A stretch of 64,000 nt of DNA, from assembly GCA_000332255.1 (NCBI GenBank), contig KB235926.1, positions 3,935,018 to 3,999,017 of the forward strand, written 5' to 3'. Each line of letters starts with the position of its first letter. The stretch's first letter is position 1. Positions 31,466 to 48,995 of this stretch are shown here, piece after piece. Source of the stretch: a cyanobacterium PCC 7702. Lineage in GTDB: Bacteria > Cyanobacteriota > Cyanobacteriia > Cyanobacteriales > Nostocaceae. The notes beneath the pieces are model-generated. The model ran no database searches. It saw nothing but the letters and a program-made list of their open reading frames with translations, and had not been told where the DNA came from. Position numbers and translations under genes: made by a program.

Positions 31466-31471
31466 TTTCCC

Positions 31472-31801
31472 CTACTCGATCTTCTTGAGCAATTGGTAAG
31501 TTGCATCTTGTTGAGCTTGATTGATTTGTCCGCCACTCCAGCCAATGTTGTGGCGATAACTGCCTAAAAGTCCTGCCTCTATTAAGGACTTTTCGTCTAC
31601 CGACTCTAAAGGTTCTACTTGGGGTGCAACATACAAAGCATCAGCCGGACAGTACAATTCACACATAAAGCATGTTTGACAGTCGTTTTGTCGGGCGATC
31701 GCTGGAGGAGCACCTGGTACTTTGTCGAAAACATTTGTAGGGCAAACACTCACGCAGATATTGCATTTAATACACCGGGAATTGCTGATTAGTTCGATCA
31801 T
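31472..31801 (-). CDS. 2x[4Fe-4S] ferredoxin-type protein
   Basis: The 109-residue protein has two cluster motifs: CIKCNICVSVCPTNVF (about 11-26) and CQTCFMCELYCPADAL (about 41-56), followed by a C-terminal extension (VEPLESVDEKSLIEAGLLGSYRHNIGWSGG). The extension and operon place suggest an AprB-like electron-transfer partner of the flavoprotein whose gene ends 68 nt upstream. It probably relays electrons to or from the flavin on an organosulfur substrate (inference). Confidence 0.88.
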   Translation of the reverse strand: MIELISNSRCIKCNICVSVCPTNVFDKVPGAPPAIARQNDCQTCFMCELYCPADALYVAPQVEPLESVDEKSLIEAGLLGSYRHNIGWSGGQINQAQQDATYQLLKKIE

Positions 31802-31869
31802 CTGCAGTTAAAGTCTGGATGTTAAGGATGAGGAACTGGGAATCCCAAACAGAACCCAATTCCATGAAC

Positions 31870-33501: not shown

Positions 33502-33618
33502 ATCCCTCGCTCTTATGTTCTAAATTTGCATACAAACTATCAAGACAGTCGCAATAGATTTTCGGCTACGTCAACCTATATCCAAACCGTCAACAGATTA
33601 CCATTTTAAAAATTAAAT

Positions 33619-33644
33619 ACTGTATATCTATCAAGATACTGTAT
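33619..33644. promoter_or_regulatory. Island element, copy 1
   Basis: TACTGTA at each end, 19 nt apart, enclosing ATCTATC. It lies upstream of the flavoprotein operon and matches the four other copies in the island, so it is likely a regulator-binding site. Confidence 0.75.
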
Positions 33645-33914
33645 ATTTATATTTGATCGTAAGTTTTGCACAGTTGTTCTAGAAAATCAAGAACAAATTT
33701 AATAAAAATTAAAACTTGACTGACAAAGCAGAATTTATGAAAAAGGACTTGCTTTTGTGACACAGTTTATGCGATGATGCAAACTTATCAATCTTAAATA
33801 CACTAAGTCTATCTGCTTACAGTAATTAAAGGTTAGCAAAGTGCAAATAACCTGTAATTGTTTCTGCTGGATGTCCGAGCAAGCTAGCATTTACTAGGAG
33901 ATAATAAACGAAAA

Positions 33915-33933
33915 ACCGCCTTGACTGGGCGGT
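33915..33933 (-). terminator. Terminator of the aldo/keto reductase gene
   Basis: ACCGCC (33915-33920) pairs with GGCGGT (33928-33933); on the minus strand a T5 tract follows, about 50 nt after the stop codon. Together with element copy 1 this accounts for the 33502-33982 gap. Confidence 0.8.
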
Positions 33934-33982
33934 AATAACTCCCGACGAGAGTATGGGATAGTAATGCAAAACTTGAATTGAT

Positions 33983-35023
33983 TTAGGGTGCAGGATTGGG
34001 ATAACGAGTGTGAACTGCATTCAATTGTGTCAAAATTTCTGGAGTTAGAACGATGTTTACACTGTCTAAATTTTCCCGAAGTTGTTCAAGCTTTGTCGCC
34101 CCAATAATGGTACTAGCAACAAACCAACGACTGCGCACAAAAGCCAAAGCCAACTGTGCGGGTTTCAGGTGATGTTGGCGTGCGATTTCCACATAAGCTG
34201 CAACAGCTTCATTCACATTTGGCTTGAGATAGCGTTGTCCAAATTTTTCAAACAAAGTGATTCGAGCATTCTTTGGTTTTTGTCCTTGCAGATATTTTCC
34301 AGATAAAAACCCAAACCCCAAAGGACTGTAAGCTAGCAAACTAACATTTTCACGATAGCAAGTCTCTGCTAAAGCTGAATCGAACACGCGATTCAACAAG
34401 TTGTACGCATTTTGAATGGAAACTATTTTCGGTAATCTTAGCTGTTTGGCAACATGACTAAATTCACAAACTCCCCAAGGAGTTTCATTACTCAAACCTA
34501 AATAGCGAATTTTGCCGGCTTGAATTACCTCAGCAAAAGCTTCTAATTGTTCTGAAATAGGAACAGTTTTACGCTCAAAGTCTGGATGATATTCTGTTTG
34601 ACCAAATAAAGGAACGTAACGATCTGGCCAGTGAATTTGGTACAAGTCTATGTAATCAGTTTGTAATCGCTTCAAACTATCATCCACTGCTTTTTTAATA
34701 GTGCGGCGTTCAATGTTTGTAGCACCTTCCCGCAGCCATGAAAAATTCCGACCAGGACCAGCAATTTTAGTAGCAATGATTAATTTATCTCGCTGTTGTT
34801 TTTTGAGCCATTCCCCGATAAAAGCTTCAGTTAGCCCTTGAGTTTCTCTGCGGGGCGGTACTGGATACATTTCCGCAGTGTCTATAAAATTGACGCCTTG
34901 AGCAATAGCATAATCTAACTGTTTGTGGGCCTCTTCAATAGAATTTTGCTGACCGTAAGTCATGGTTCCCAAACAAATTTCCGAGACTTTTAGGTCACTA
35001 TTGCCAAGTTGGTTATATTTCAT
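33983..35023 (-). CDS. Aldo/keto reductase
   Basis: The 346-residue TIM-barrel oxidoreductase has the AKR catalytic set: Asp in INFIDTAEMYP, Tyr in the same motif, Lys in IIATKIAGPG and His in LYQIHWPDR. IAGPGRNFSWLREG and a long C-terminal half resemble the Tas-like branch. It probably reduces a carbonyl with NADPH, and in this island might act on aldehydes released from sulfonates (inference). ATG at 35021-35023 is preferred over the one four codons earlier, as it gives the normal MKYNQLGNSDLKVSEI start. Confidence 0.88.
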   Translation of the reverse strand: MKYNQLGNSDLKVSEICLGTMTYGQQNSIEEAHKQLDYAIAQGVNFIDTAEMYPVPPRRETQGLTEAFIGEWLKKQQRDKLIIATKIAGPGRNFSWLREGATNIERRTIKKAVDDSLKRLQTDYIDLYQIHWPDRYVPLFGQTEYHPDFERKTVPISEQLEAFAEVIQAGKIRYLGLSNETPWGVCEFSHVAKQLRLPKIVSIQNAYNLLNRVFDSALAETCYRENVSLLAYSPLGFGFLSGKYLQGQKPKNARITLFEKFGQRYLKPNVNEAVAAYVEIARQHHLKPAQLALAFVRSRWFVASTIIGATKLEQLRENLDSVNIVLTPEILTQLNAVHTRYPNPAP

Positions 35024-35409
35024 ATTTGACAACAATTAACTGTGGTTTGATTTACATAATATGACTAAAAGATATCAAAGATATCAAGAAAATTATCTTT
35101 TCAAACTTTTGGAAATTTTATGATGTTTTACTGATTTTATTTCCAGTCATTATTGCTCTATTTTTTTTGAAAATGATAATATTTACAATTATAAAAATAA
35201 ATTGATTTGCTGTACTTTTGTATTGTGAGTTTTTCGAGAGATCGATAACTTAATTTTTCTAATCTGAATAAAAATTTTTGAAATCTAAAAAATTGAGCCA
35301 GAGAGCGTTCAAACTAGTAGCGAAACTTGGTGTTGCCGAATTATCCAGATATTGGGTGCAGTATTACGAAAATTTTGTCACAGACCCAGGAGAGTTTTTA
35401 TAAATAGAA
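35024..35409. other. AT-rich divergent intergenic region
   Basis: Should hold promoters of the aldo/keto reductase and the porin. I find no copy of the 26-nt element and no clear hairpin. Confidence 0.4.
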
Positions 35410-37068
35410 ATGAGCAGAAGAATTTGGAATATATTGTTCACCGGACAAGTTGCGTTGGGGTTAATCTTATCAGCAACGACAAAAATTGTGGCTCAGGAAG
35501 TACCTGCAATTTTTAAGGAAAATATTCCTCAAGTAGCACAATCCAAACAACCGGTTGAGGAATCTCCAAGACCCTTAGAAACAACATCTCCAGTTACCTC
35601 TGTTTCTCAACTTTCAGATGTACAAGCAACTGATTGGGCTTTCAGCGCACTTCAGTCGCTGGTTGAGCGCTACGGTTGCGTTGTTGGATATTCTAACAGT
35701 ACTTATCGCGGTAACCGTGCTCTTAGCCGTTATGAATTTGCTGCAGGATTGAATGCTTGTCTAGACCAAATCAATAAATTGATTGCATCATCCACAGCTG
35801 ATTTAGTTACAAAAGAGGATTTAGCCAGTCTGCAAAAATTGATAGAGGAATTTCGTCCAGAACTGACGCAATTAGGAGGAAGACTGGATAATTTAGAAAT
35901 CAGAACAGCACAAGTAGAAGCCAAGCAATTTTCAACCACAACAAAACTTGTTGGCGATGCAATCTTCCTGGTAGCTGATACTTTTGGTGACGCAGCGAAC
36001 AACACTAGCGCTAATGATACATCAGACAACACTACTACCTTTTTTGCTTACCGTGCCAGGCTTGCCTTACAAACCAGCTTCAACGGTAAAGATCAACTCA
36101 CAACTGGTTTGCAAGCAACCAACATTCCTAACTTGGGAGTATATACAGGAACCCAAATGACTCGTTTTACCTTTGATCGACAGGGTGCTTTCGCCGATAA
36201 CCAACTGTTCCTCGATCGCTTGTATTACCGTTTTCCATTAGGCGACAAACTTATTGTTTGGGTAGGTCCCAGAGCTCTTCAACCAGCTGTTCACACTCCG
36301 ACTTTGAATCCTTTGGTTGGTGGAATCAATGGTGCTGTCTCCCGATTTGCTACCTTTAACCCTACTATTTACCGACCAGGTTTTGATGGTGCTGGTGTAG
36401 CGTTGGCATATAAGTTTAGCAAGCAATTGCAATTAAACCTGAGTTACATCGGAGATAACTTTCAGACCAATGTACCGGCAATAGGATTTGCCAATGCAAA
36501 TAACATTATATTTTCTCAATTAACTCTATCCCCTAGCAATCAGTTAGATATTGGCTTGAGCTACGTCCGCAAATACTTTGCTAGTAATACTGGTTTTAAC
36601 CTGACCGGTGGTACGGGTAGTGCATTTGCAAGAAACCTTTTTCAACAAAATGCTACTACTTCCGATAACTTTGGTCTTCAATTTAACTGGAAAGTTACCA
36701 ATGGTTTTAATCTGGCTGGTTGGTTTGGTTATACATTCGCCCATCAAGTCCGCGGTGGCAACAGCGATGCGACCATCGTAAATGGCGCACTTACCTTTGC
36801 TTTTCCAGATTTATTTAAGGAAGGAAATTTCGGAGGGTTTGTCGTTGGTGTACCGCCCAAAGCCATCAGTAATGACTTTAGACCCACACCTAGTGCAGCT
36901 CGTCGGGAAGATAAAGATACCTCTTTACATTTAGAGGCTTTTTATACCTACAGAGTAAATAATAATATCACTATTACTCCGGATTTTTACGTAATTATTA
37001 ACCCAGAACACAATGATAACAATGCTCCGATTTGGGTAGGTGTTCTCAACACTACCTTTACCTTTTAA
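35410..37068 (+). CDS. SLH-domain OprB-type porin
   Basis: A 552-residue outer-membrane porin. After a signal peptide comes an SLH domain (VSQLSDVQATDWAFSALQSLVERYGCVVGYSNSTYRG, about 67-105) that ties it to the cell wall, a short coiled coil (about 120-175), and a long beta-barrel of alternating strands ending GVLNTTFTF. Such porins are commonly called iron-uptake porins in cyanobacteria. Here, as the first gene before ssuA1, it more likely lets sulfonates through the outer membrane (inference from context). Confidence 0.87.
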   Translation: MSRRIWNILFTGQVALGLILSATTKIVAQEVPAIFKENIPQVAQSKQPVEESPRPLETTSPVTSVSQLSDVQATDWAFSALQSLVERYGCVVGYSNSTYRGNRALSRYEFAAGLNACLDQINKLIASSTADLVTKEDLASLQKLIEEFRPELTQLGGRLDNLEIRTAQVEAKQFSTTTKLVGDAIFLVADTFGDAANNTSANDTSDNTTTFFAYRARLALQTSFNGKDQLTTGLQATNIPNLGVYTGTQMTRFTFDRQGAFADNQLFLDRLYYRFPLGDKLIVWVGPRALQPAVHTPTLNPLVGGINGAVSRFATFNPTIYRPGFDGAGVALAYKFSKQLQLNLSYIGDNFQTNVPAIGFANANNIIFSQLTLSPSNQLDIGLSYVRKYFASNTGFNLTGGTGSAFARNLFQQNATTSDNFGLQFNWKVTNGFNLAGWFGYTFAHQVRGGNSDATIVNGALTFAFPDLFKEGNFGGFVVGVPPKAISNDFRPTPSAARREDKDTSLHLEAFYTYRVNNNITITPDFYVIINPEHNDNNAPIWVGVLNTTFTF

Positions 37069-37076
37069 TTAAATAC

Positions 37077-37102
37077 TCCTGTATATCTATCGATATACTG
37101 TA
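37077..37102 (+). promoter_or_regulatory. Island element, copy 2
   Basis: CTGTA boxes 19 nt apart flank a perfect dyad TATATC-TATC-GATATA. It lies 26 nt before the ssuA1 ATG, so a bound factor or a promoter would act directly on ssuA1, not on the porin upstream. Confidence 0.78.
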
Positions 37103-37127
37103 TTAAGAGGAGAGGGAGTTGACTTTT

Positions 37128-38204
37128 ATGGTGAAAGTGTTTTTCAGAGGTTTAACTGTCCAGTTGCTCAATCCAAATCAACTATTTTCTGTGTTCCGTG
37201 TTTCTATAACGAAAGCTTTCTTAGCTGGATTGTGTTTGAGCTTATTTTTTGCTGCTTGTACGGCTAATAATTCTGCTAAAACTAACAACGTTACAGCAGC
37301 TGATAATCCTGGTAAGACCAAAACATCAGTAGTAAGATTTGGCTATCAAAAATCAGCCATTCTGCTCAAGAGCAAAGGAGTATTAGAAAAGCGCCTGCAA
37401 CCAGAAGGAGTATCTGTAGAATGGACGGAATTTCCCGCGGGTCCACAACTTTTAGAAGCAATGAATGTCGGTAGTATCGACTTTGGACATACAGGAGAGT
37501 CGCCTCCAATTTTTGCTCAAGCTGCAGGAGCTTCCTTGACATATATTGCGGGAATTGCACCTAGTCCTGCGAGTTCAGCTATTATTGTTCCTCAGACATC
37601 TCCAATCAAGTCAGTTACTGACCTCAAAGGTAAAAAAATTGCTTTTCAAAAAGGTTCTAGTGCTCATTACCTGCTAGTACAAATTTTGGAAAAATATGGT
37701 TTGAAATACAGTGACATTAAGCCGGCCTTTCTACCACTTGCTGATGCTCGTGCTGCTTTTGTTAAGGGTAGTGTTGATGCTTGGGTTATTTGGGATCCCT
37801 TTTATGCTGCAGCTTCAAAAACAATTAATGCTCGCGTATTGATTGACGGTAAGGGAATTACAAAACAGGGAGGATATTATTTAGCAAGTCGCAAGTTTGC
37901 GGTCGAAAATCAGCAAACGATTAAAGCGATTTTGGAAGAAATTAAAAAATTAGAAGATTGGTCTAGTAAAAATAGGCAAGCTGTAGCAGAAACTCTGGCT
38001 CCTGTGTTGGGAATTGATTTGGAAGCAATGAAAAAAGCTGTTAACAGGAAGCAATTTGGAATTGTGCCAATTAATGCCGAATTAATTGCTGCCCAGCAGG
38101 AAGTTGCAGATACTTTTTATCGGTTGAAATTAATACCTAAGCAAATTAATGTTAAAGAAGCAATGCTCACACCAGAAGAATATGCAGCTTTGTCACCATC
38201 TTAG
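37128..38204 (+). CDS. ssuA: Aliphatic sulfonate ABC transporter binding lipoprotein
   Basis: From ATG 37128, with ribosome site AGGAGAGGGAG (37107-37117) well spaced, the protein has 358 residues. A lipobox (LFFAAC, Cys44) follows the signal. The SsuA pattern is complete: VRFGYQKSAILLKSKGVLEKRL, WTEFPAGPQLLEAMNVGSIDFGHTGESPPIFAQAAG, and KGSVDAWVIWDPFYAA. It should deliver sulfonates to the SsuBC pair farther along. A closely similar paralogue (43213) is in the same island. The TTG at 37119 is too near the ribosome site. Confidence 0.92.
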   Translation: MVKVFFRGLTVQLLNPNQLFSVFRVSITKAFLAGLCLSLFFAACTANNSAKTNNVTAADNPGKTKTSVVRFGYQKSAILLKSKGVLEKRLQPEGVSVEWTEFPAGPQLLEAMNVGSIDFGHTGESPPIFAQAAGASLTYIAGIAPSPASSAIIVPQTSPIKSVTDLKGKKIAFQKGSSAHYLLVQILEKYGLKYSDIKPAFLPLADARAAFVKGSVDAWVIWDPFYAAASKTINARVLIDGKGITKQGGYYLASRKFAVENQQTIKAILEEIKKLEDWSSKNRQAVAETLAPVLGIDLEAMKKAVNRKQFGIVPINAELIAAQQEVADTFYRLKLIPKQINVKEAMLTPEEYAALSPS

Positions 38205-38230
38205 CTGTATTTTCTGAGTTAATATAACAA

Positions 38231-39070
38231 ATGTATTATCAGTTACCTATGATTAATCCTGCTGAGTTACTGAGCGATCGCTACGGCTTTAGCATTGGCA
38301 ATATACATACTTCCTGGAATGAAACTTTAGCAACACTGCTTTCCCATCGTTCCATTCGTGCTTATCTTCCCAAACCTTTGCCAGCAGGTACTTTAGAAAG
38401 CCTAATAGCAGCAGCGCAGTCTGCATCTACATCTTCTAATCTTCAGACGTGGAGTGTTGTAGCAATAGAAGACCCAGAACGCAAGGAAAAATTATCACAG
38501 CTAGCAGGAAATCAAGCGCACATTCAGCAGTGTCCGTTGTTTCTCGTTTGGTTAGCAGACTTGGCGCGTCTGACCTGTATTGCTGAAAATCTTGGCTCGC
38601 CCCATGAAGGTCTAGATTACCTAGAGATGTTTTTAACAGCAGTGATAGATGCTGCAATAGCAGCGCAAAATGCAGTTATTGCTGCTGAATCTGTGGGTTT
38701 GGGTACGGTGTATATTGGTGCCATGCGCAATCATCCAGAACGGGTGGCAAAGGTCATTGGTTTACCTCCTTACGTTTTTGCTGTGTTCGGTCTTTGTGTC
38801 GGTTATCCCGATCCAGCTGCTCAAGCTGCGATCAAGCCGCGTTTACCTCAAACTGCAGTCTTGCACCGGGAAACGTATCAGCTAGCACAACAAGTAGGCG
38901 CGATCGCCTGCTATGACAAAGTTATGAAAGACTTTTACTCCCAACGGCAGATGAACTTTCCAGGCAATTGGTCAGAGCATTCTGTCAAAAGAATAGCTTC
39001 TGCTCAATCCTTATCTGGACGTGACAGGTTGCGCGAAGCTTTGAACAACCTTGGTTTGAAACTGCTGTAA
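38231..39070 (+). CDS. Nitroreductase-family FMN oxidoreductase (NfsA-like)
   Basis: The 279-residue protein has the flavin-binding start SHRSIRAYLPKPLP (about 37-50), QSASTSSNLQTWSVV, and AAQNAVIAAESVGLGTVYIGAMRNHPERVAKVIGLPPYVFAVFGLCVGYP, as in NADPH-dependent NfsA-type reductases. It lies 26 nt after ssuA1 and is surely co-transcribed. NfsA-like enzymes can supply reduced flavin; here it may feed the flavin-dependent SfnB-like enzyme downstream (inference). Confidence 0.88.
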   Translation: MYYQLPMINPAELLSDRYGFSIGNIHTSWNETLATLLSHRSIRAYLPKPLPAGTLESLIAAAQSASTSSNLQTWSVVAIEDPERKEKLSQLAGNQAHIQQCPLFLVWLADLARLTCIAENLGSPHEGLDYLEMFLTAVIDAAIAAQNAVIAAESVGLGTVYIGAMRNHPERVAKVIGLPPYVFAVFGLCVGYPDPAAQAAIKPRLPQTAVLHRETYQLAQQVGAIACYDKVMKDFYSQRQMNFPGNWSEHSVKRIASAQSLSGRDRLREALNNLGLKLL

Positions 39071-39453
39071 TCAAACTAACTTCTTTAGTTTATGTCCTTT
39101 TCCTCCAAAGTTCTCCTCAACTGAGAATCTGTGGGATCCCTTTTGTTGACTTTTATTAAAATAATGAGATAGGGCTGTTTGGCCTTTCTGGAAAAATAAA
39201 TTGTTCGAGAAGTGCCACACCCTTATCTCTAAGTTACCAGCGATCGCCGCCAACCTCTCCATTTCACAAAATAAAATTAATGTCAACTCTCTAAAAAAGT
39301 ATTGATTATAAATTTTGATTGTTGCCCGTAGTTCTTTCTAGAGGAGTATACGGTTATCCACCCTGTTTTTGGACTCAGAATTTGTAATAATTGTTAAGTG
39401 ATTTTTATAAAAATTAACATAACTAGTGGCAGATTTTGAGGAAAACCCCACCC

Positions 39454-40035
39454 ATGCTCAAGTTCCATGCTTCTCAAAATTTGACAATGACCGTGCTCAA
39501 CCAAGCAATTTCTATTGAGCACTATCTGCGTCAACCACAACGTTTGGTTCAAGCTGTCACTGCTCGCACCCAACTGGAGCAGCTTGGTCCATCCGAATTT
39601 CGCCTCAAGCTTCGTCCTCTGAAGTTTATGACGTTCAGTATTGAACCTATAGTAGATTTACAGGTTGTGGCTGGTGCGGACGGGACGATTTACCTGCGAT
39701 CGCAAACATGTAAGATTCGTGGAGCTGAGTACCTGCAAAAGTCCTTTATCTTCAATCTTGCAGGCAAGTTATCCCACCAGAACATCGGAGCTGCCACAAT
39801 GTTAAAAGGAACAGCTGACCTCACAGTGCAACTAGAATTACCACCAGCTTTACAGCTAACACCCAAGCCAATTCTCGAAACTGCAGGAAATGCCCTTCTC
39901 AACGGTATTCTTATAACTATGAAAAACCGCCTGGAACGTCAGCTGTTGCAAGATTATCATCTTTGGGTACAGACAACTACAGCAATGGGCGCAGAAGCTT
40001 CTAACGTTGTACCAATGGGAAGTCCAGTTAGTTAA
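39454..40035 (+). CDS. DUF1997-family protein
   Basis: A 193-residue soluble protein, with ATG 39454 preferred over a TTG at 39436. Sequence features LKFHASQNLTMTVLNQAISIEHYLRQPQRLVQAVTARTQLEQLGPSEFRLKLRPLKFMTFSIEPIVDLQVV suggest an SRPBCC-like lipid- or pigment-binding fold, and DUF1997 proteins are conserved in cyanobacteria and plastids. It lies more than 380 nt after the nitroreductase, so its link with sulfur uptake is uncertain. Confidence 0.75.
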   Translation: MLKFHASQNLTMTVLNQAISIEHYLRQPQRLVQAVTARTQLEQLGPSEFRLKLRPLKFMTFSIEPIVDLQVVAGADGTIYLRSQTCKIRGAEYLQKSFIFNLAGKLSHQNIGAATMLKGTADLTVQLELPPALQLTPKPILETAGNALLNGILITMKNRLERQLLQDYHLWVQTTTAMGAEASNVVPMGSPVS

Positions 40036-40343
40036 ATCTTGTGGAACAATTATCACAGCAGTTAAGTTGCATCTTAGCTTTCACGCCAGGGGTGCTCTAA
40101 ACAGAGGGTGTCCGACTCAGCACATCGCCAATTTTGTCAACAATTTCGAAAATTTAATATTCCTCAGAAACAAAAAGATCTTCACCTGGAGTAACAATCA
40201 TAACAACTTCCGGATGAAAACTAGAAGGGACAAGATCAAGCTCCAGGACAACTAATGTGATTTCGAGCACAGCGGGAGCAATCTTTAAATCAGGTATCTA
40301 CTACGCCCGTCTTTTGGCAGAAATTTCTCCACGCCTCAAAACA

Positions 40344-40410
40344 GGAGATTTAATAAAGTTTGCACTCTCGGAATTTGTCTCCATAAATAAATTCAAGGGC
40401 TTGAGACCAT
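40344..40410 (+). repeat. 67-nt inverted repeat, right copy
   Basis: Same 67-nt unit as 30322-30388 in opposite orientation (7 mismatches, no gaps). Together the copies bracket about 10 kb with eight genes of the island. Confidence 0.85.
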
Positions 40411-40549
40411 GGCATTAAAAATTACACTCTTCCCTTCTGTCCCCTGCCTTGTGCCTTTCTTCTGGTAAAGATTCTAACTGTGTAATGCTAAGAAATTTAA
40501 CCTCCTTGCCTTTTTAGGAAAACTATGCAAAACTATTATCAATATAAAA

Positions 40550-40575
40550 TACTATAAATCTACCGATTTACTGTA
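40550..40575 (+). promoter_or_regulatory. Island element, copy 3
   Basis: TACTATA and TACTGTA boxes 19 nt apart around the perfect dyad TAAATC-TACC-GATTTA. It lies 331 nt upstream of ssuB. Confidence 0.75.
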
Positions 40576-40905
40576 TTTAAGCTAGCCTTAAAATAAAACG
40601 AAGGCTAAGGAGTCCGTTATTTGGAAAATTTCAAGTCAGGGTAATTTGAAGTGAAACGTTGTTAGAGTTAGATACTCTTAAAGGTTTGAAGTATGCAAGA
40701 AAGATTGCAAAGGAAGTTATCTGGACGCGTCTAGGTGTAATTAACGATAGAAGGTAGGAAATTTCTTCACCACTTCATAAGACATTCAACCGGTCAAACT
40801 GAAGCAGAGTTAATACCAAAATTGCCACTAGAGTTCAGCATTTTTAGTTTGATTGCAGTCGTGTCTCGATGCAGGCAAGGTCTAAAGATTGGAGGATAAT
40901 TTGGC

Positions 40906-41712
40906 ATGGGATCTCAAGTGCGGGGAATGCATTTAAAACTCGAAGGACTAAGAAAATCCTTCGGGACAAAAACAGTTTTGCAGGGCATAGATTTAGAGGT
41001 ATTACCAGGAGAATTTGTAGCGATCGTCGGTCGTAGTGGATGTGGAAAGAGTACTATGCTACGCCTGATTGCTGGATTAGATACTCCTAATGGAGGAGCT
41101 GTCTTTTTGAATGGCAAACAATCCCATGGAATCGATCCAGCAGTAAGGATGATGTTTCAAGATGCACGCCTGTTACCTTGGCAACCAGTACTGGCAAATG
41201 TGGAATTAGGATTATTGGGTTCTACATCCAAAGTACATGTAAGGCAAAATGCTTTACAAGTTCTGCGTGCTGTGGGTTTAGAAGATCGCGCTCATGAATG
41301 GCCTGCAGTCCTTTCTGGTGGACAACGCCAGCGGGTAGCTTTAGCCAGAGCATTGGCTAGTAAACCTCTATTGTTGCTTTTGGATGAGCCATTGGGCGCT
41401 TTAGATGCATTAACACGCATTGAAATGCAGCAATTGCTAGAAGATTTATGGCAGCAACAGGGGTTTACTGCATTGCTAATTACCCATGATGTGGAAGAAG
41501 CAGTAGTTCTTGCAGACCGAGTAGTTTTAATTGAAAAAGGTCTAATTGGCATGGATGTAAAGATTTCTCTACCCCGTCCCAGACAAAGGGGAGATGCGGA
41601 ATTTGCACAAACAGTAGAAAAGATTTTACAGCGTGTCATGGGCAAACCAGAAAGGAACGAATACGAGCATAATCTGGAAAATGCTTTGTCGTTAACTTCG
41701 GTGCAGGGATGA
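40906..41712 (+). CDS. ssuB: Sulfonate ABC transporter ATPase
   Basis: The 268-residue ATPase has Walker [12 protein letters not shown] (about 42-52), [20 protein letters not shown] (Q-loop), the signature [15 protein letters not shown] (about 136-150), Walker [13 protein letters not shown] and H-loop [20 protein letters not shown] is typical of SsuB/TauB. It is the only ATPase of the island, so all three binding proteins would have to share it or use another. It is followed after about 50 nt by the SfnB-like gene. Confidence 0.93.
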
Positions 41713-41763
41713 TACATGTAGCGAAAGCTACTTGCAATTCACGAGCAAAAAGAAAATAGAGCT

Positions 41764-42951
41764 ATGGTGCAATACTTAGTCAAAGAAGAATTGAAAGATT
41801 GGATAGGAATCGCTTCTTCTATATCTGCTCAACTAAGCACTAATGCTGTAGAACGGGATACACAAGCAGGACTACCAGAGCAAGAAATTAAACTGTTGCG
41901 CGAAAACGGTCTTCTACCTTTGGTAGTTCCCACAGAATATGGTGGTGTAGGAGCTACCTGGATAGAAGCATTAAAAATTGTCCAATTACTTTCCCAAGCT
42001 GATGGCTCTATTGGCCAGTTGTATGGCAATCATCTTAACTTAACAACTTTGGCTCACGTAAGCGGAACTCCTGAGCAAAAACAGAGATACTACCAGGAAA
42101 CAGCTGCCAACAATCTATTTTGGGCCAATGCCATCAATACGCGGGATACCAGACTGAAAATCGTTCCAGATGGCGAACACTTTCGCGTCCACGGTACCAA
42201 GAGTTTCGGTACGGGTATAGCGATCGCCGATATGCGGGTATTCTCTGCTATCCAAGACGGCGTCGAAACTCCTTTATTTTTCATTATCCCCAAAGACAGA
42301 AACGGCGTAGTTTCTCAGCAAGATTGGGATAATTTCGGCCAGCGACGCACCGATAGCAACACCTTCTCCTTCCATGATGTCTTGGTAAAAAAAGATGAAG
42401 TTCTGGGATATCCCCATCCTCCTGAACATGCTTTTTCGACATTTTTGGGAATCATCGCTCAGTTAACCAAAACCTACGTCTACCTGGGAATTGCTCAAGG
42501 AGCATTATTAGCAGCAAAACAGTATACTCTTACCCAAACTAGACCCTGGATTACATCTGGGGTAGAACGCGCCGCCGCCGATCCCTACATTCTCCATCAC
42601 TATGGAGAACTGTGGACACAACTGCAAGCAGCTATTGCTTTGAGCGATCGCGTTGCAGTGGAAGTCCAACAAGCATGGAATAAAGATATCAACTTAACTT
42701 CCCAGGAACGGGGAGAAGTCGCGATTTCAGTATTTGCAGCTAAAGCCTTTGCAAGCAAAGTCGGTATAGACATTACCAACCGCATCTTTGAAGTCATGGG
42801 AACTCGTTCTACAGCTACTAAGTATGGCTTTGACCGTTACTGGCGCGATCTCCGCACCTTTACACTGCACGATCCCTTAGATTACAAGTTGCGCGATATA
42901 GGTAATTGGGTACTTAACCAAGAGTTACCACTTGTGACCCAATACTCTTAA
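41764..42951 (+). CDS. SfnB/DszC-like flavin-dependent monooxygenase (acyl-CoA dehydrogenase fold)
   Basis: A 395-residue protein of the acyl-CoA dehydrogenase superfamily: EQEIKLLRENGLLPLVVPTEYGGVGATWIEAL (about 38-69), SQADGSIGQLYGNHL, GTKSFGTGIAIADMRVFSA, and a C-terminal helix bundle with FEVMGTRSTATKYGFDRYWRDLRTFTLHDPLDYK. It lacks the acyl-CoA dehydrogenase catalytic Glu context and matches the SfnB/DszC type, which uses reduced flavin to oxidise organosulfur compounds and release sulfite. It lies between ssuB and ssuA2, which fits that role. Confidence 0.82.
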   Translation: MVQYLVKEELKDWIGIASSISAQLSTNAVERDTQAGLPEQEIKLLRENGLLPLVVPTEYGGVGATWIEALKIVQLLSQADGSIGQLYGNHLNLTTLAHVSGTPEQKQRYYQETAANNLFWANAINTRDTRLKIVPDGEHFRVHGTKSFGTGIAIADMRVFSAIQDGVETPLFFIIPKDRNGVVSQQDWDNFGQRRTDSNTFSFHDVLVKKDEVLGYPHPPEHAFSTFLGIIAQLTKTYVYLGIAQGALLAAKQYTLTQTRPWITSGVERAAADPYILHHYGELWTQLQAAIALSDRVAVEVQQAWNKDINLTSQERGEVAISVFAAKAFASKVGIDITNRIFEVMGTRSTATKYGFDRYWRDLRTFTLHDPLDYKLRDIGNWVLNQELPLVTQYS

Positions 42952-43085
42952 ACCACAACAACTGTTGCCGCAGTAATCTCCTCATCCTTGTCAGGTGGGC
43001 TAAAACTCCCGCCTTATTTCCTTACACTCGATTCCGCCAAAAACTTCCACATTGGACTTGATTCCGGTCCCGACTACTCTATTTC

Positions 43086-43145
43086 TCATCTCTACGAGAA
43101 GCCGCGCGACGCGACGCGAGCCCTCGCCGCGTCTACGCTACAGCA
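43086..43145. repeat. GC-rich dispersed repeat
   Basis: Runs from ctctacgagaagccgcgcga through gacgcgagccctcgcc to tctacgctac. It shares the start (ctctacgagaagcc) with the element at 45541. It fills much of the gap between the SfnB-like gene and ssuA2. Confidence 0.6.
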
Positions 43146-43212
43146 GCCACAAGTCTAGTCCAGTTCTCAAGGTGCTTATCTGCTCAATTCGCATTATTCG
43201 CTACTTGGCCTT

Positions 43213-44289
43213 ATGCAAAATTTGCAAACAAAATCTCCATTCCGGCAACATCGCCGCATTACTCGCCGTTACATTTTTTTTGCTCTCGGTTATACTCTTG
43301 TACTATCTACTATCTTGTTCGGTTGCCACAAACTAGAAAATAAAACTCAGTCGCAAGTTCTTTCATCAAATAGCAAAAATAAAGTAGTACGTATAGTCCG
43401 TTCTAAACAACTCACCGCCTTAGCAGTACTGGAAAAGCAAGGCAATTTGCAAAAAAGATTGCAATCTCTCGGATATAAACTAGAGTGGCCAGAATTTGCT
43501 GCTGGACCGCAACAATTAGAAGCCCTGAATGCAGGTAATCTTGATATTGCATCCACCGCAGAGTCCCCCCCTATCTTTGCACAAGCAGCAGGAACTCCTT
43601 TGGTTTATTTGTCTGCTAATTCTCCCGATCCCAAAGCAGTTTCGCTTTTAGTTCCTCTCAACTTGCCAATTAAAAGCGTCCGCGACCTGAAAGGGAAAAA
43701 AGTAGCTTTTCAAAAAGCATCCATCGGTCATTATCTTTTAGTCAAAGCTTTAGAAAAAGAAGGACTGAAATTAACTGATGTCAAATCAGTTTACCTTCCA
43801 CCCCCAGATGCAAATGTAGCTTTTAGTCAAGGAAAAGTAGATGCTTGGTTTATTTGGGAACCGTTTGTGACCAGAAACGTGCAAAAGAAAATTGGCCGGG
43901 TTTTGATAGATGGTAGTAATTTACGAGATAGCAATAACTTTTACTCCACCTCGCGCCAATTTTATCAAGAAAATAAAGAGGTAATTAAAGTATTCCTAGA
44001 GGAACTGCAAAAAGCACAAATTTGGTCTAAAAATCACCCGAAGGAAATGGCACAATTACTTGCTCCAGTAACTCAATTGGATGTACCAACTCTGGAAAAA
44101 ATGCACAGAAAGTATCAATTTGAATTAGTACCAATCACTGAAAAAATTATTAAAAAACAACAAGAAGTAGCAGATAAATGGTACAGCTTGGGGCTGATAC
44201 CCAAAAGGGTCAATGTGCGAGATGGTTTTTTGACCCCCGAACAATATGCGGAAATTACTCCTAAAGACATATTAGCTAAAAATAATTAG
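43213..44289 (+). CDS. Aliphatic sulfonate ABC transporter binding lipoprotein, paralogue
   Basis: A 358-residue SsuA-type binding protein with lipobox TILFGC (Cys38) and the same core as the 37128 gene: VRIVRSKQLTALAVLEKQGNLQKRL, WPEFAAGPQQLEALNAGNLDIASTAESPPIFAQAAG, and QGKVDAWFIWEPFV. The two clearly derive from duplication, but they differ at positions lining the binding site (FGHTGES against IASTAES), so they may have different ligand ranges. The nearest partner is ssuC, 343 nt downstream. Confidence 0.9.
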   Translation: MQNLQTKSPFRQHRRITRRYIFFALGYTLVLSTILFGCHKLENKTQSQVLSSNSKNKVVRIVRSKQLTALAVLEKQGNLQKRLQSLGYKLEWPEFAAGPQQLEALNAGNLDIASTAESPPIFAQAAGTPLVYLSANSPDPKAVSLLVPLNLPIKSVRDLKGKKVAFQKASIGHYLLVKALEKEGLKLTDVKSVYLPPPDANVAFSQGKVDAWFIWEPFVTRNVQKKIGRVLIDGSNLRDSNNFYSTSRQFYQENKEVIKVFLEELQKAQIWSKNHPKEMAQLLAPVTQLDVPTLEKMHRKYQFELVPITEKIIKKQQEVADKWYSLGLIPKRVNVRDGFLTPEQYAEITPKDILAKNN

Positions 44290-44632
44290 AAAGTAAATAG
44301 GAGTAGCAATAATAGAAATAGAATAACTAATTTTTGTTTGATGTAATTACTATATTTTCCATATTTAAAAATCAAAATTTTACATTTGAATGACTAGTCT
44401 TATTCGAGGAAAAAATTGAACATTAAAAACACTTCTTATATAGACTATGATTTATTAATTCGGAAGTTATTGAGAATCAAAAATGCATAGCTAATTTATT
44501 TTTTTAAACCAGTTATTCCTAACAATATAGATATTAAGGAAGCTATGCTGACACTAGAAATCCTGAGTAATAAATAGCATACAGAGTTTGGAATATTATC
44601 CGTATTTACAGCTTCAGGACAGGAGTTCACGC
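44290..44632. other. AT-rich intergenic region before ssuC
   Basis: Nothing recognised apart from the ssuC ribosome site AGGAG at 44621-44625. No island element copy is seen here. Confidence 0.4.
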
Positions 44633-45481
44633 ATGAAAAATTTTTCTTCTCTTTCTGGCTATTTTCCGCACATAAAAAAGACCAAAAAACAAAAGTTACT
44701 ACTTAAAATTCTCAAAAATCGCCATGTGCAATCTCTGATTCCCTGGGCTGTACCCATATCACTCATCATTGTGTGGCAAATATTATCTAATATAGGCTTG
44801 ATTCCCAGCAGAATATTACCCGCACCGTTAGCTGTAGTTGGTGCTGCAATTCAATTAGCTAAAACAGGAGAATTATTTCGCAATATTGGTGTTAGTGCAA
44901 CTCGTGCTGTTTCTGGTTTTTTAATTGGTGGAGGTATCGGGTTTGCTTTGGGATTGCTAAATGGAATTTCTCCTGTTGCTGAAAAATTGTTAGATACTTC
45001 TTTACAAATGCTCCGCAACATTCCCAATTTAGCTTTAATTCCTTTGGTAATTTTATGGTTTGGTATTGGGGATGAAGCTAGATTATTTCTTGTTTCTTTA
45101 GGTGTTATGTTTCCCATCTATTTAAATACTTTTCATGGAATTCGTAGTGTCGATCCGGGATTAATTGAAATGGGGAAGATTTATGGGTTAAATCCCTTGG
45201 GCTTATTTTGGCGAATTATTTTACCCGGGGCGATGTCTTCCATCTTGGTGGGTGTTCGTTATTCTTTAGGTATTATGTGGTTGACTTTGATTGTCGCAGA
45301 AACTATAGCTGCTGATTCTGGTATTGGCTATATGGCTATGAATGCCAGAGAATTCATGCAAACTGATGTCGTAGTTTTAAGTATTTTACTATACGCTTTG
45401 TTTGGAAAATTAGCGGATGTTATTGCCAGAGCACTCGAGAATTATTGGTTGCAGTGGAATCCCAACTACCTTAAGAACTAG
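44633..45481 (+). CDS. ssuC: Sulfonate ABC transporter permease
   Basis: A 282-residue inner-membrane permease with about six segments. The ABC-interaction loop is EMGKIYGLNPLGLFWRIILPGAMSSILVGVRYSLG, and the start VPISLIIVWQILSNIGLIPSRILPAP is typical of SsuC/TauC/NrtB. I used the ATG at 44633 because AGGAG lies 7 nt upstream. It completes the transporter with ssuB and the ssuA proteins, but is separated from ssuB by two genes. Confidence 0.92.
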   Translation: MKNFSSLSGYFPHIKKTKKQKLLLKILKNRHVQSLIPWAVPISLIIVWQILSNIGLIPSRILPAPLAVVGAAIQLAKTGELFRNIGVSATRAVSGFLIGGGIGFALGLLNGISPVAEKLLDTSLQMLRNIPNLALIPLVILWFGIGDEARLFLVSLGVMFPIYLNTFHGIRSVDPGLIEMGKIYGLNPLGLFWRIILPGAMSSILVGVRYSLGIMWLTLIVAETIAADSGIGYMAMNAREFMQTDVVVLSILLYALFGKLADVIARALENYWLQWNPNYLKN

Positions 45482-45501
45482 ACAAGAAGAAAAATTTAAA
45501 G

Positions 45502-45527
45502 TACTTTAAATCTATCGTGTTATTGTA
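45502..45527 (+). promoter_or_regulatory. Island element, copy 4
   Basis: TACTTTA and TATTGTA boxes 19 nt apart around AATCTATC. It stands between ssuC and a small membrane-protein gene. It is the most diverged copy. Confidence 0.6.
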
Positions 45528-45540
45528 TTTATTTTTCTAG

Positions 45541-45570
45541 CTTCTCTACGAGAAGCCACGCGAGCGCGTG
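45541..45570. repeat. GC-rich dispersed repeat
   Basis: Begins ctctacgagaagccacgcga and has the same head as the repeat at 43086. Confidence 0.5.
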
Positions 45571-45591
45571 TTTACACAGGAGCAATAAAAA

Positions 45592-45816
45592 GTGGCATTA
45601 TTAATTTCCCGTGTTCGAAAAGAAAATCGCAACCAAAGGTGGAAGCCAACTTTAGTATGGCGTGTCAAAGCCTATACAACAGTATTTGGGATTATGGTTT
45701 TGACATTTACTAGTTTGGGCTTTTTATACATTTATGAGTTGGGGAGTGAGTTGCTAGCAGCAATCAAAAAGGGTAGGGCGGAAAATCAAGAATGGGAGAG
45801 TTTACAAAGCAAGTGA
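45592..45816 (+). CDS. Small single-helix membrane protein
   Basis: A 74-residue protein starting at GTG 45592, with GGAG about 9 nt upstream. A basic N-terminus (SRVRKENRNQRWKPTLVWRVKAY) precedes one membrane helix (TTVFGIMVLTFTSLGFLYIYELG, about 29-51) and a charged tail. By the positive-inside rule the N-terminus is cytoplasmic. No family recognised. Element copy 4 immediately upstream hints that it is regulated with the sulfonate genes. Confidence 0.55.
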   Translation: MALLISRVRKENRNQRWKPTLVWRVKAYTTVFGIMVLTFTSLGFLYIYELGSELLAAIKKGRAENQEWESLQSK

Positions 45817-46135
45817 CGGAATTGCAAAAACTGGGGATTGTTTTTCATGCGATCGCACTCGCCAGGTACTGAAAATAGAGACAGAATTTATCTAGTCTGT
45901 GTACACAGTTATGCAAGCAGCGTCAGGTTTATTTTGCAGATATGGCTGTATCAAATTTTTTTGCTAAAACACTCCAGTTTCGCTTCTAGTAGCATTAAAT
46001 TTGCTAGATAGCTACTGGAGTGGTTGATTGTGCTGCTACTGATTGTATTGTTAGCTGGTGCAAGAAGTACTTGAAGTTTGGTTTTGCTTGTAGCGAGCAC
46101 GCTTTGTTGGGATTACTGTAGTTTCTACAGCTTGC
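45817..46135. other. Convergent intergenic region with a large stem-loop
   Basis: ACTCCAGT (45971-45978) pairs with ACTGGAGT (46014-46021) around a loop with further short complementarity (TAGCA/TGCTA). No T-tract follows. It may still end transcription from both sides; otherwise nothing is recognised. Confidence 0.4.
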
Positions 46136-47707
46136 TTATATGCGTTGTGCACCTGGTTGATTATTTGAGACTACAAAAGAAGCTAGGGTGCTGATAGAAG
46201 CATTTTGTTCGGTAATGCTTGACACTACCCGGTAGTCACTTTGCCAGTAATGACGGTTGAGGTAGCAACGGACGTAACCTCGGAAAGCACCGTCAAAAAA
46301 CCTGGTATGGGGATTACCGCTCAAAGCAGCTTGTACTGGAGCGATAAACTCGGTGGGAAAGTTCGAAGAAATTGAAGTTCCGACGAACTCAGTACCCACG
46401 GTAGCTGAGGATGGATTAGTAAAGTCAACTTTGAGATCGTGTACCCAACTAGAGTGGATATCTCCACTAATGACAATTGGGTTTGAGGGTCGGCGCTGTT
46501 CTAAAAAATTAAGGAGCCTTTGGCGCGCGGCGATATAACCGTCCCACTGGTCCATGTTGAATAATTCTGTTTCTGGACGGGAATCGAAGTCGAATTCAGC
46601 TAACATGGTTTGCTGAGCGATCGCATTCCAGATTGCTGGCGATTTGTCTAATCCTCTCAGCAGCCATTGCTCCTGCTGCGTACCTGTCATAGTAGCATTG
46701 GTATCAAAGACTTGAGGACAGCGGGGCTTGAGTCCGTCACCGCAGGGTTGGTCGGTACGGTACTGGCGGGTATCTAATACGTGAAATTGTGCTAAGTCGC
46801 CAAAACTAAACCGTCGATACAACTGCAAATAGGGACCTTTGGGCAGCGAAGACGGACGCAGTGGCATGTGCTCGTAGTAAGCTTGATATGCATTGGCTCT
46901 TCGTACTGCAAACGCGGTCTGGCTTTGGTTTTCTTCAGGTATGAAGCCAGCATAGTTATTCTCAACTTCATGATCGTCCCAAGTGACAATCCAGGGAAAA
47001 GCAGCATGAGCAGCTTGTAAATGGGGATCGCTCTTGTACAGAGCATGACGGTTGCGATAGTCAGTAAGGGAGACTGTTTCAGGACTGTTATGCTGGCGTG
47101 GTCCACCCGGCAATGGACCGTATTCGTAAATATAGTCGCCCAGGTGAACGACAAAATCTAAATCCTCTTGTGCTAGATGTTGGTATGCTGTATAGTAACC
47201 GTTTTGCCAATCTTGACAGGAGACAAAGGCAAAGTTCAGTTTGGGAATAGGGGCAAAGAATGCTGCTGCTGTGCGGGTTCTGCCAATGGGACTGAGTTCG
47301 TTGCCTGCTTGGAATTGATACCAATACCACTGTCCGGGTTTGAGCCCGCGTACTTCCACGTGTACCGAGTGTGCTAACTCTGGAGTCGCTATTGCTTTTC
47401 CGCGCTGGACAATCTTTTTCATTTTTTCGTCTAGGGCAACCTGCCACCGTACCATAACGTTTTCTGGTGGCATTCCCCCTCCATGCAGGGGATCGGGAGC
47501 TAGACGCGTCCACAAGACAACGCTGTCCGGTAATGGCTCGCCAGAGGCTACTCCGAGACTGAATGGATAAGCAGAAAACCTGGGTTTTGCCATCACAGGG
47601 CGCAATCGACTAACTAGTGTTAAACCTGTTAGCAATCCCGCGCCTATTAAAAAACTCCGCCGCCGACATCGAGTTTTGAGTAAGCGATCGCTTTGTATAA
47701 GCTCCAT
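46136..47707 (-). CDS. phoD: PhoD-family phosphodiesterase/alkaline phosphatase D
   Basis: A 523-residue exported enzyme. Starting at the ATG ending 47707, it has a twin-arginine signal (CRRRSFLIGAGLLTGLTLVSRLRPVMA). PhoD landmarks are PFSLGVASGEPLPDSVVLWTRLAPDPL, the metal-binding VSCQDWQNGYY and HLGDYIYEYG blocks, TWDDHEVENNYAG, and ISGDIHSSWVHDLK near the end. PhoD enzymes need Ca/Fe and act on phosphate mono- and diesters. No Pho box is obvious. It is odd to find it inside a sulfur island. Confidence 0.9.
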   Translation of the reverse strand: MELIQSDRLLKTRCRRRSFLIGAGLLTGLTLVSRLRPVMAKPRFSAYPFSLGVASGEPLPDSVVLWTRLAPDPLHGGGMPPENVMVRWQVALDEKMKKIVQRGKAIATPELAHSVHVEVRGLKPGQWYWYQFQAGNELSPIGRTRTAAAFFAPIPKLNFAFVSCQDWQNGYYTAYQHLAQEDLDFVVHLGDYIYEYGPLPGGPRQHNSPETVSLTDYRNRHALYKSDPHLQAAHAAFPWIVTWDDHEVENNYAGFIPEENQSQTAFAVRRANAYQAYYEHMPLRPSSLPKGPYLQLYRRFSFGDLAQFHVLDTRQYRTDQPCGDGLKPRCPQVFDTNATMTGTQQEQWLLRGLDKSPAIWNAIAQQTMLAEFDFDSRPETELFNMDQWDGYIAARQRLLNFLEQRRPSNPIVISGDIHSSWVHDLKVDFTNPSSATVGTEFVGTSISSNFPTEFIAPVQAALSGNPHTRFFDGAFRGYVRCYLNRHYWQSDYRVVSSITEQNASISTLASFVVSNNQPGAQRI

Positions 47708-47907
47708 TGTTGTAATTTTGTCTCTAAGGGTCGCTGCAATAGGCAATACGAAGCTATCAAGCCAAACCCAAGTAGAAATTAAGAACACGTTAAAGTTAAC
47801 TGCTCGACAGCTTAAGCAAACTACCAAGCAATTAACTACTGTTAGGGTGCAAGCAAAATTGAGGTACTCGTGCAGGCGGCAGTGTCTTAGTTTTTAGTCT
47901 TGCATTC

Positions 47908-48816
47908 TTAAGCGATAACTAATGGTGGGGTGTAGGCAGAAGAATCTCCCTTGATAGCTTGGCTGCGTTGACCATCAATGCTGATGGGAACCTCACCAGC
48001 AATTGTCACTCGTTGCACGCGGCGGGGCTGGTCGCCATAATCAGCGATCGCGTAATGTTGAGTAGCACGGTTATCCCAGAATGCAACATCCCCAACTTGC
48101 CAACGCCAGCGAACCGTGTTCTCAGGACGTGTTATGTATGACTGTAACAATCGAAGAATATCGGTTGATTCTGTTGTTGATAAACCGCGAAACTGGCGAA
48201 CAAACCCACCAAGAAGCAAACTGCGCTCTCCAGATTCAGGATGAACGCGCACAACTGGATGTAAGGTCTCGTATACAGTTGAAGTGAAAACATCTCGGTA
48301 TGCTTTGACTTCTTCAGGAAGATCGATAGGTGTGACGTAGTCAAAAGCATTGCTGTGCACTGCCCAAAGTTGGTCTGCAAGATTGCGCAAATGAGTTGGT
48401 AAATCTTGGTATGCAGTAACTGTGTTTGCCCAAATGGTGTCGCCTCCTTCTCGAGGGATAACAAGCGCCCGTAATATAGAACCAAGGGGAGGACGATCTA
48501 CAAAGGTGACATCGGTATGCCAAGTATTGGCGCGATTGACAGTTCGACCATAATCCAGATCAAGAACCTGCGGGTGATCTGGTAACGACGGTACCGTTGG
48601 ATGAGCTGTCGTAACTTCGCCAAACTGTCGAGCAAAGGCAACCTGTCCCTTAGCGTCTAGCTGCTGGCGACGGAAGAAAATTACCTTGTATTGAATCAGC
48701 GCTTTGCGAAGTGAGGCAATAACTTCATTGCCAAGCTCAGCACTCAGATCGATACCTACAATTTCAGCTCCTATACGTCCTGCAATTGGTTGAACGTCAA
48801 AGTATTTAAAACTCAT
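47908..48816 (-). CDS. TauD/TfdA-family Fe(II)/2-oxoglutarate dioxygenase
   Basis: From the ATG ending 48816 the protein has 302 residues. The iron-binding facial triad is His100 and Asp102 (NTWHTDVTF) with His254 (RATQHYAIADYG); Arg269 (RRVQRVTIAGE) fits the 2-oxoglutarate carboxylate. TauD enzymes oxidise taurine or alkylsulfonates and release sulfite; other family members act on alkylsulfates or herbicides. The island context supports a sulfonate or sulfate ester substrate. Element copy 5 lies about 150 nt upstream of its start. Confidence 0.9.
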   Translation of the reverse strand: MSFKYFDVQPIAGRIGAEIVGIDLSAELGNEVIASLRKALIQYKVIFFRRQQLDAKGQVAFARQFGEVTTAHPTVPSLPDHPQVLDLDYGRTVNRANTWHTDVTFVDRPPLGSILRALVIPREGGDTIWANTVTAYQDLPTHLRNLADQLWAVHSNAFDYVTPIDLPEEVKAYRDVFTSTVYETLHPVVRVHPESGERSLLLGGFVRQFRGLSTTESTDILRLLQSYITRPENTVRWRWQVGDVAFWDNRATQHYAIADYGDQPRRVQRVTIAGEVPISIDGQRSQAIKGDSSAYTPPLVIA

Positions 48817-48969
48817 ATGTTTGTATCTCCCCAGAGCTTTTACTAGTTCTTTCCGCAAGCCTTTGAGTAGCAAGCACTTGTCAAGTGTTTCTTTACAGTC
48901 TGTTGCTATTCCGTGTCAGAGTGAAAATTTCTAAACTTTATCTCTGCCACAATTTGCCACTGCCAAAAA

Positions 48970-48995
48970 TACTGTAAGTCTATCAATAAACCGTA
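48970..48995. promoter_or_regulatory. Island element, copy 5
   Basis: TACTGTA and AACCGTA boxes 19 nt apart around GTCTATC, upstream of the TauD-type gene (opposite strand). The rest of the 48817-49185 gap is repeat DNA. Confidence 0.68.

Follow-up and report, generated by a model that had tools for sequence, protein, structure and literature searches.

Does the 26-bp element that recurs across an organosulfur gene island of the cyanobacterium PCC 7702 serve as an operator, and if it does, which genes would it control and which protein would bind it? These questions are posed by a window of 64,000 nucleotides (the whole stretch of DNA that was analyzed; contig KB235926.1, positions 3,935,018-3,999,017, assembly GCA_000332255.1), for which a first-pass annotation had listed five copies of the element and had proposed them as the operator of a sulfur regulon governed by a distant factor. 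Scans of the window, of the 4.9 Mb genome to which it belongs, and of other cyanobacterial genomes leave us highly confident that this element functions as an operator in a sulfur regulon. The fuller statement, with Rrf2-family proteins of one particular clade (clade I) as the repressor at this operator, we regard as moderately probable. The operator, its bias towards sulfur genes, its presence upstream of the Rrf2 genes themselves, its co-occurrence with clade I, and the geometry of the accompanying promoters are all supported.

Architecture of the element

Each of the five reported copies is present, copy 1 being better registered at 33618-33643, and a sixth copy had been missed. The sites in the window, all given without a strand, are the following:

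33618..33643: operator copy 1, 30.7 bits, upstream of an operon for a flavoprotein, a ferredoxin and a substrate-binding protein (SBP)
33799..33824: sixth operator copy, missed by the first-pass annotation, 22.9 bits, TACACTAAGTCTATCTGCTTACAGTA, 181 bp from copy 1
37077..37102: operator copy 2, 32.2 bits, upstream of ssuA1
40550..40575: operator copy 3, 33.6 bits, upstream of ssuB and its followers
45502..45527: operator copy 4, 25.7 bits, directly after ssuC
48970..48995: operator copy 5, 30.4 bits, upstream of a TauD-type gene

The sixth copy, TACACTAAGTCTATCTGCTTACAGTA, shares one intergenic region with copy 1. The assertion that the copies are confined to the island stands insofar as none lies elsewhere in the window, but the count of five was short by one. 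The related genome G091 (stretch L268) contains an island like that of the window, with operators in comparable places; there, the place equivalent to that of copy 4 precedes ssuD.

The consensus of the element is TACNGTAAATC-N4-GATTTACNGTA, a 26-bp near-palindrome in which 14 to 20 of the 26 positions are self-complementary in each of the five copies. The spacing of 19 nt between the starts of TACTGTA-like boxes, as described earlier, is borne out, while the dyad core that had been attributed to copies 2 and 3 needs correction, as the whole 26-bp element is a dyad. For the same reason, TACTGTA as a direct repeat was rejected; this appearance arises because TACNGTA is itself palindromic within a near-palindrome. 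When the half-site is symmetrised over 114 sites of other genomes, it reads T A C g g T A A a T C g A, with the strongest conservation at C3 (99%), T1 (95%), A2 (91%) and T6 (91%).

Leave-one-out matrices score the five copies at 24-34 bits; copies 2-5 rank below only their four training copies, and copy 1 ranks below two of its training copies. Over the 64-kb window, the five-copy matrix finds nothing above 6.5 bits beyond the six sites and their reverse strands, and with a symmetric matrix (trained on sites of this genome, the six window sites included) the next place after the six sites (22.9-33.6 bits) scores 6.3 bits.

Sulfur genes and predicted promoters at the sites

A scan of the genome with the five-copy pattern, allowing at most three mismatches, gave 55 strand hits (28 forward and 27 reverse), as compared with 16 (9 and 7) for a reversed control pattern. 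Twenty stretches were fetched around pattern hits and amount, together with the window, to 400,015 bases, in which the rate of sites is not unbiased because the stretches were picked for hits. Twenty-four sites of at least 20 bits are present in these sequences (6 in the window and 18 outside), the maximum in the reversed sequences being 14.0 bits. Half of the strong sites beyond the window (9 of 18) stand immediately before a sulfur gene or the gene of an Rrf2 regulator. The sites elsewhere in the genome are situated as follows:

Strong site before sfnG (626 bits, cut-off 383)
Strong site before a second tauD gene (tauD2)
Strong site before ssuD (644 bits, cut-off 510), then a gene for a flavin mononucleotide (FMN) reductase
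Strong site before an SBP gene (stretch L036)
Strong site before an aldolase-luciferase-like-SBP run of genes (L038)
Strong site before rrf2 (L032)
Strong site between cysA and a cysR homologue (L033; CysA-type, 426 bits, cut-off 343)
Strong site before cysK (L031; 467 bits, cut-off 351)
Strong site before an SBP gene, then a peroxiredoxin-like gene (L029)
Strong site before a carboxymuconolactone-decarboxylase-family gene, then an acyl-CoA-dehydrogenase-fold flavoprotein gene (L043)
No clear sulfur link: site at the gene for a 606-residue protein without Pfam match (L029)
No clear sulfur link: site at the gene for a 262-residue protein (L038)
No clear sulfur link: two sites near glutathione-transferase genes (L036)
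No clear sulfur link: site at a UPF0093 gene (L034)
No clear sulfur link: site at cutA and brkB-purB (L030)
No clear sulfur link: site at a DUF2808 gene (L035)
No clear sulfur link: site at an aminotransferase gene (L041)
Weaker site before a sulfate-binding protein gene (14.9 bits)
Weaker site between cysE and a second rrf2 gene (11.3 bits)
Weaker site before a luciferase-like monooxygenase gene (17.3 bits)

The previously proposed scope of the regulon, organosulfur genes, is thus contained in these data but was drawn too narrowly, since sulfate uptake and cysteine synthesis are reached as well.

Of 242 cyanobacterial genomes, 69 are matched by a stricter pattern, and a genome other than this one has at most 15 strand hits (one palindromic site may count twice in such numbers); the reversed control matches 44 of the 242 genomes, seven of them with two or more hits, and lone hits mean little because the control gives about the same rate. 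When the best site in each of 29 genomes was considered, a homologue of a sulfur-regulon protein of PCC 7702 (identity of 40% or more across 60 or more residues) was found at 16 of the 29 site loci and was lacking at 13, as compared with 0 of 20 control loci set at round coordinates on the same contigs of 20 of these genomes (p=2.5e-5); loci L143 and L151 were kept in this set although contig ends cut them. Sulfur clusters with scattered sites (sbpA-cysT-cysW-cysA, cysE, cysK, ssu, tauD, sfnG, cysR, rrf2) are present in families f1, f26 and f33, and the element extends beyond the order of the window organism.

The presence of several copies in one island could also be expected of a neutral dispersed repeat or a mobile element. 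The flanks of the copies differ, the dyad is conserved across families when its flanks are not, the loci are biased towards sulfur genes, and the distance to promoters is fixed. This explanation was rejected on the excess of hits over the control in this genome, the sulfur bias and the promoter spacing, and we assign it a negligible probability. The genome scan therefore upholds an operator of a sulfur regulon, in view of the 55 versus 16 hits, the nine of 18 strong sites, and the 16 of 29 versus 0 of 20 loci.

Two promoters are predicted from the sequence next to operators of the window:

33662..33690, minus strand: TTGATT-N17-AAAACT, predicted as the extended -10 promoter of the flavoprotein operon; operator copy 1 follows 18 bp downstream
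40506..40534, plus strand: TTGCCT-N17-AAAACT, predicted as the extended -10 promoter of ssuB; operator copy 3 follows 15 bp downstream

Many sites of this genome have upstream of them, in the direction of the gene, a block consisting of TTG, 17 bp, and a TGn-extended -10 element with A2 and T6. Around sites of this genome above 18 bits, TTG-N17-TG was found in 10 of 31 flanks on the gene-ward side and in 2 of 21 on the opposite side (background, 29 of 319 stretches). A promoter model made from 11 examples of this genome, picked by a TTG-N17-TG search, was applied to 93 sites in relatives, where its score exceeds 8 in 37 of the gene-ward flanks versus 4 of the opposite ones; sites with genes on both sides or on neither were dropped from this set, in which many Nostoc orthologues inflate the significance. 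In a less redundant set of 114 sites in relatives, free of the loci of the 93-site set and of near-identical sites, a promoter scoring above 10 is present on one side of 37 sites, as compared with 1.8% for shuffled flanks, the operator matrix and the promoter model both stemming from this genome. Thirty-six of these 37 promoters lie 7-20 bp before the operator, so that the operator is predicted to overlap the core promoter or to follow it closely at about a third of the relatives' sites. An operator just past the start of transcription is typical of a repressor and not of a class I or class II activator, and the position 7-20 bp downstream of an extended -10 promoter fits a repressor.

The genes of the island are given below with longest-open-reading-frame starts, for which reason distances to start codons are lower bounds:

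30413..31465, minus strand: SsuA-like SBP (TIGR01728, 107 bits, under the cut-off of 163.5)
31472..31801, minus strand: 4Fe-4S ferredoxin (Pfam Fer4)
31870..33501, minus strand: fumarate-reductase/AprA-like flavoprotein, first gene of its operon (Pfam FAD_binding_2, Succ_DH_flav_C)
37119..38204, plus strand: SsuA1, sulfonate-binding protein (TIGR01728, 256 bits, cut-off 163.5)
40906..41712, plus strand: SsuB-type ABC ATPase (PRK11247, 340 bits, under the cut-off of 395)
41764..42951, plus strand: DszC/SfnB-like flavin monooxygenase (DszC 339 bits, SfnB 293 bits, both under the cut-off)
43213..44289, plus strand: SsuA2 (TIGR01728, 239 bits, cut-off 163.5)
44588..45481, plus strand: SsuC permease (PRK11365, 350.5 bits, cut-off 347)
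47908..48873, minus strand: TauD-family dioxygenase (Pfam TauD, 213 bits; taurine dioxygenase model, 257 bits, under the cut-off of 313)

The flavoprotein-ferredoxin-SBP trio (30413-33501) forms an operon behind two operators, is found again behind operators in G123 (L257, 269-3291), and may encode an oxidoreductase for organosulfur compounds. Between operators 4 and 5, within the sulfur island, lies a gene for a PhoD-type alkaline phosphatase (46136-47827). Elsewhere in the genome, the 606-residue protein without Pfam match is encoded behind an operator (L029:9461-11281), and a relative with 61% identity lies between operators in G192 (L272:9230-11005); its gene is a candidate new member of the sulfur regulon. 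An 862-residue protein (L043:5955-8543) combines cyclic-nucleotide-binding, sigma-54-activator-type AAA and 4Fe-4S domains, and its gene has an operator-like site downstream (before the next gene) and a weak site upstream. In L041 (7553-10795), an operator is followed by the aminotransferase gene and then by a fusion of a protein kinase domain with an FGE-sulfatase (formylglycine-type) domain.

Candidate binding proteins

The island had been said to lack a regulator gene, which holds among the genes scanned; a MarR-family gene (52315-52836) is located 3.3 kb past the last copy. For the distant factor that was invoked instead, there is a strong candidate in an Rrf2 gene at genome positions 1659933-1660367, about 2.3 Mb from the island, which has two sites (18.1 and 27.0 bits) upstream. 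When a matrix trained without these two sites was applied to 80 named loci of relatives, 44 of them had a site of more than 12 bits in the 400 bp upstream, often paired, with one copy at -67 and the other near -158; reversed loci yield two hits above 12 bits in 757 kb. Many of the 36 other loci hold a degenerate copy at -67. A divergent pair of Rrf2 genes with two operators between them, adjoined by a sulfate transporter cluster, is present in G192 (L232:1728-2965).

In a tree of 50 Rrf2 proteins, one clade (100/100) unites 21 rows with an upstream site above 10 bits, one with a weak site and one without (G231, in which sites lie further up, between rrf2 and cysR; L264), and none of the 27 rows outside it carries a site in the 400 bp searched. 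A wider tree of 62 rows, with 400 or 600 bp searched upstream, splits (99/95) into the sister clades I (29 rows) and II (33 rows); rows more than 80% identical, those shorter than 110 residues, and five named ones (four duplicates and the distant L190) were dropped from it, and its bootstrap is unsettled. An upstream site is found in 23 of the 29 clade-I rows, is weak in one, and is missing in five, while among the 33 clade-II rows none has a site above 10 bits, two have a weak one, and 31 have none. PCC 7702 itself has five Rrf2 matches, of which two belong to clade I (1659933-1660367, and 1518746-1519174 beside cysE), two to clade II (2924752 and 3013813), while the fifth (4208651) is distant.

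The sites also co-occur with clade I. Core clade I was taken as the 25 genomes at or above 199.9 bits in a profile search (next match, 197.3 bits) whose model includes many of the core proteins. At least one strand hit is present in 25 of these 25 genomes versus 44 of 217 others, and at least two in 22 of 25 versus 12 of 217. Eight genomes outside the core have at least three hits; three of them (G063, G144, G101) have a site-less clade-I copy, G235 has a partial copy with a site, G123, G134 and G128 are without clade I when checked with the clade-I profile, and G143 is unplaced.

Could the known sulfur regulator CysR bind the element instead? CysR, a CRP-family protein, is the described sulfur regulator of Synechococcus elongatus (PMC12016511); the main text of that article does not mention a binding motif, consensus, palindrome or electrophoretic mobility shift assay, and so gives no CysR operator. 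Clade I shares with it the role, in prospect, of a cyanobacterial sulfur regulator, and a site lies between the cysR homologue and cysA in PCC 7702; the two differ in protein family, and the predicted operator position here fits repression. A strong CysR is present in all 25 core clade-I genomes, and 14 of 16 cysR genes (the exceptions being L261 and L274) carry a site within about 330 bp upstream, although many of the stretches with these genes were picked for sites or neighboring regulators. Such a site fits CysR as a target as well as a binder. Clade I is the better predictor of sites: among the 63 strong-CysR genomes (typed with E values no higher than about 1e-50, one of them at 1.7e-50), at least two hits are present in 22 of the 25 that possess core clade I versus 7 of the 38 that do not. 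Furthermore, G197, in which CysR has no match at E 1e-15, carries a site of 28 bits between two sbpA genes, and the placement of the operator downstream of predicted promoters would be odd for an activator. CRP-family sites are generally narrower than a 26-bp span with a conserved outer TAC, which also counts against CysR. We therefore consider CysR a rather unlikely binder.

Its sister relationship to clade I makes the widespread clade II another contender, which would bind the site alone or share it with clade I. Clade II is present in the exceptional genomes G123, G128, G134 and G197, and its gene adjoins cysK in G123 (L198), G128 (L201) and G197 (L234), with an iron-uptake-type porin gene also near. 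Judged by gene order, this adjacency is a CymR-CysK-like linkage outside the Firmicutes, CymR being known to work with CysK. Still, no clade-II row has an upstream site above 10 bits, and most genomes possess a clade-II-like Rrf2 match yet have no or few sites, so that we hold binding by clade II to be improbable.

A number of observations weigh against clade I as the repressor of a sulfur regulon. In five of the 29 clade-I rows, no site is present within the 400-600 bp upstream; the cysR genes carry the site, too; G123 and G134 lack clade I although they have CysR, with sites close to cysR and to sulfur genes; and G128 and G197 have sites without either clade I or CysR. Kinship inflates the statistics, as the p-values for co-occurrence are too small because the genomes are related. 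No clear sulfur gene adjoins eight of the 18 strong sites found beyond the window, and two thirds of the relatives' sites (77 of 114) lack the extended -10 promoter by the model used. The genomes G128 and G197, along with the fact that binding of clade I to the site is a prediction, would agree with yet another factor, of which rrf2 and cysR are mere targets; this we judge very unlikely, given that self-operators and phyletic distribution alike connect the site with a single Rrf2 clade.

A proposed regulatory circuit and its relatives

We infer binding by clade I, repression, and the nature of the signal as follows. The dyad operator would define a regulon that covers sulfate uptake, cysteine synthesis, and the scavenging of sulfonates, sulfones and taurine-type compounds, and its most likely binder would be clade-I Rrf2 (1659933-1660367 and 1518746-1519174), a putative dimeric repressor related to CymR of Bacillus. 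At many promoters, the operator begins at about +1 to +15 relative to the predicted start of a stereotyped extended -10 promoter; under ample sulfur, a repressor bound there would stop transcription at initiation or early in elongation. The Rrf2 gene would be subject to its own repression, and the targets of the Rrf2 repressor would include cysR, which encodes the CRP-type sulfur regulator already known. The sensor may be CysK with O-acetylserine, by analogy with CymR.

The two clade-I proteins of PCC 7702 belong to the Rrf2 superfamily (104.2 and 113.0 bits; TIGR00738 rrf2_super, cut-off 73.3). CymR, the Rrf2-family cysteine regulator of Bacillus and Staphylococcus, is of the same fold family and is the best relative of clade I among PDB and equivalog entries, apart from an Rrf2 protein of T. 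potens and the superfamily model. The likeness extends to sulfur and cysteine genes as candidate targets, to cysK beside some of these Rrf2 genes (in G231 and G189 for clade I), and to the likely function as a repressor; the comparison does not take in the operators, as the operator sequence of CymR was looked for in passages of PMC2940859, PMC2869319, PMC9239247 and PMC9338935 and was not found there. Four clade-I proteins (87-98 bits) and three clade-II proteins (104.5-107 bits) fall below the CymR cut-off (NF047409, 195), and clade I differs from CymR in being a cyanobacterial clade that carries its own operator and has sulfonate and sulfone scavenging among its candidate targets. CymR acts together with CysK (PMC9338935, PMC2940859); since CymR is also the nearest equivalog and cysK genes are neighbors, clade I probably works like CymR without being filed as CymR. 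IscR, the Fe-S regulator of the same superfamily, is more remote: four clade-I proteins score 69.5-76 bits against the TIGR02010 cut-off of 207.55, and the candidate targets of clade I are sulfur supply genes. No invariant or nearly invariant cysteine that might serve as an Fe-S ligand is present in 22 clade-I rows, and an IscR-type cluster is thus unlikely. The related literature includes Slr0846 of Synechocystis, listed in one review as an uncharacterized IscR (PMC7058544).

Among the matches listed in the open-license PMC literature, no description of a cyanobacterial Rrf2 sulfur regulon or of this operator was found. Cyanobacterial sulfur control, as presented in the literature found, rests on CysR, and the passages concerned give no CysR operator. 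Brought together here are an operator, the genes that it may control, a promoter architecture, and a candidate repressor that can be named. We put forward, as a tentative possibility, that these are parts of a master sulfur regulon in several cyanobacterial families, in which an Fe-S-free Rrf2 repressor with CysK as its sensor would constitute a CymR-CysK-type circuit outside the Firmicutes, would silence extended -10 promoters through an operator just past the start, would stand above CysR, and would have been carried along with spreading organosulfur islands. In addition, the operator flags genes of unclear role that travel with the use of organosulfur compounds, such as the flavoprotein-ferredoxin-SBP operon and the gene of the 606-residue protein.

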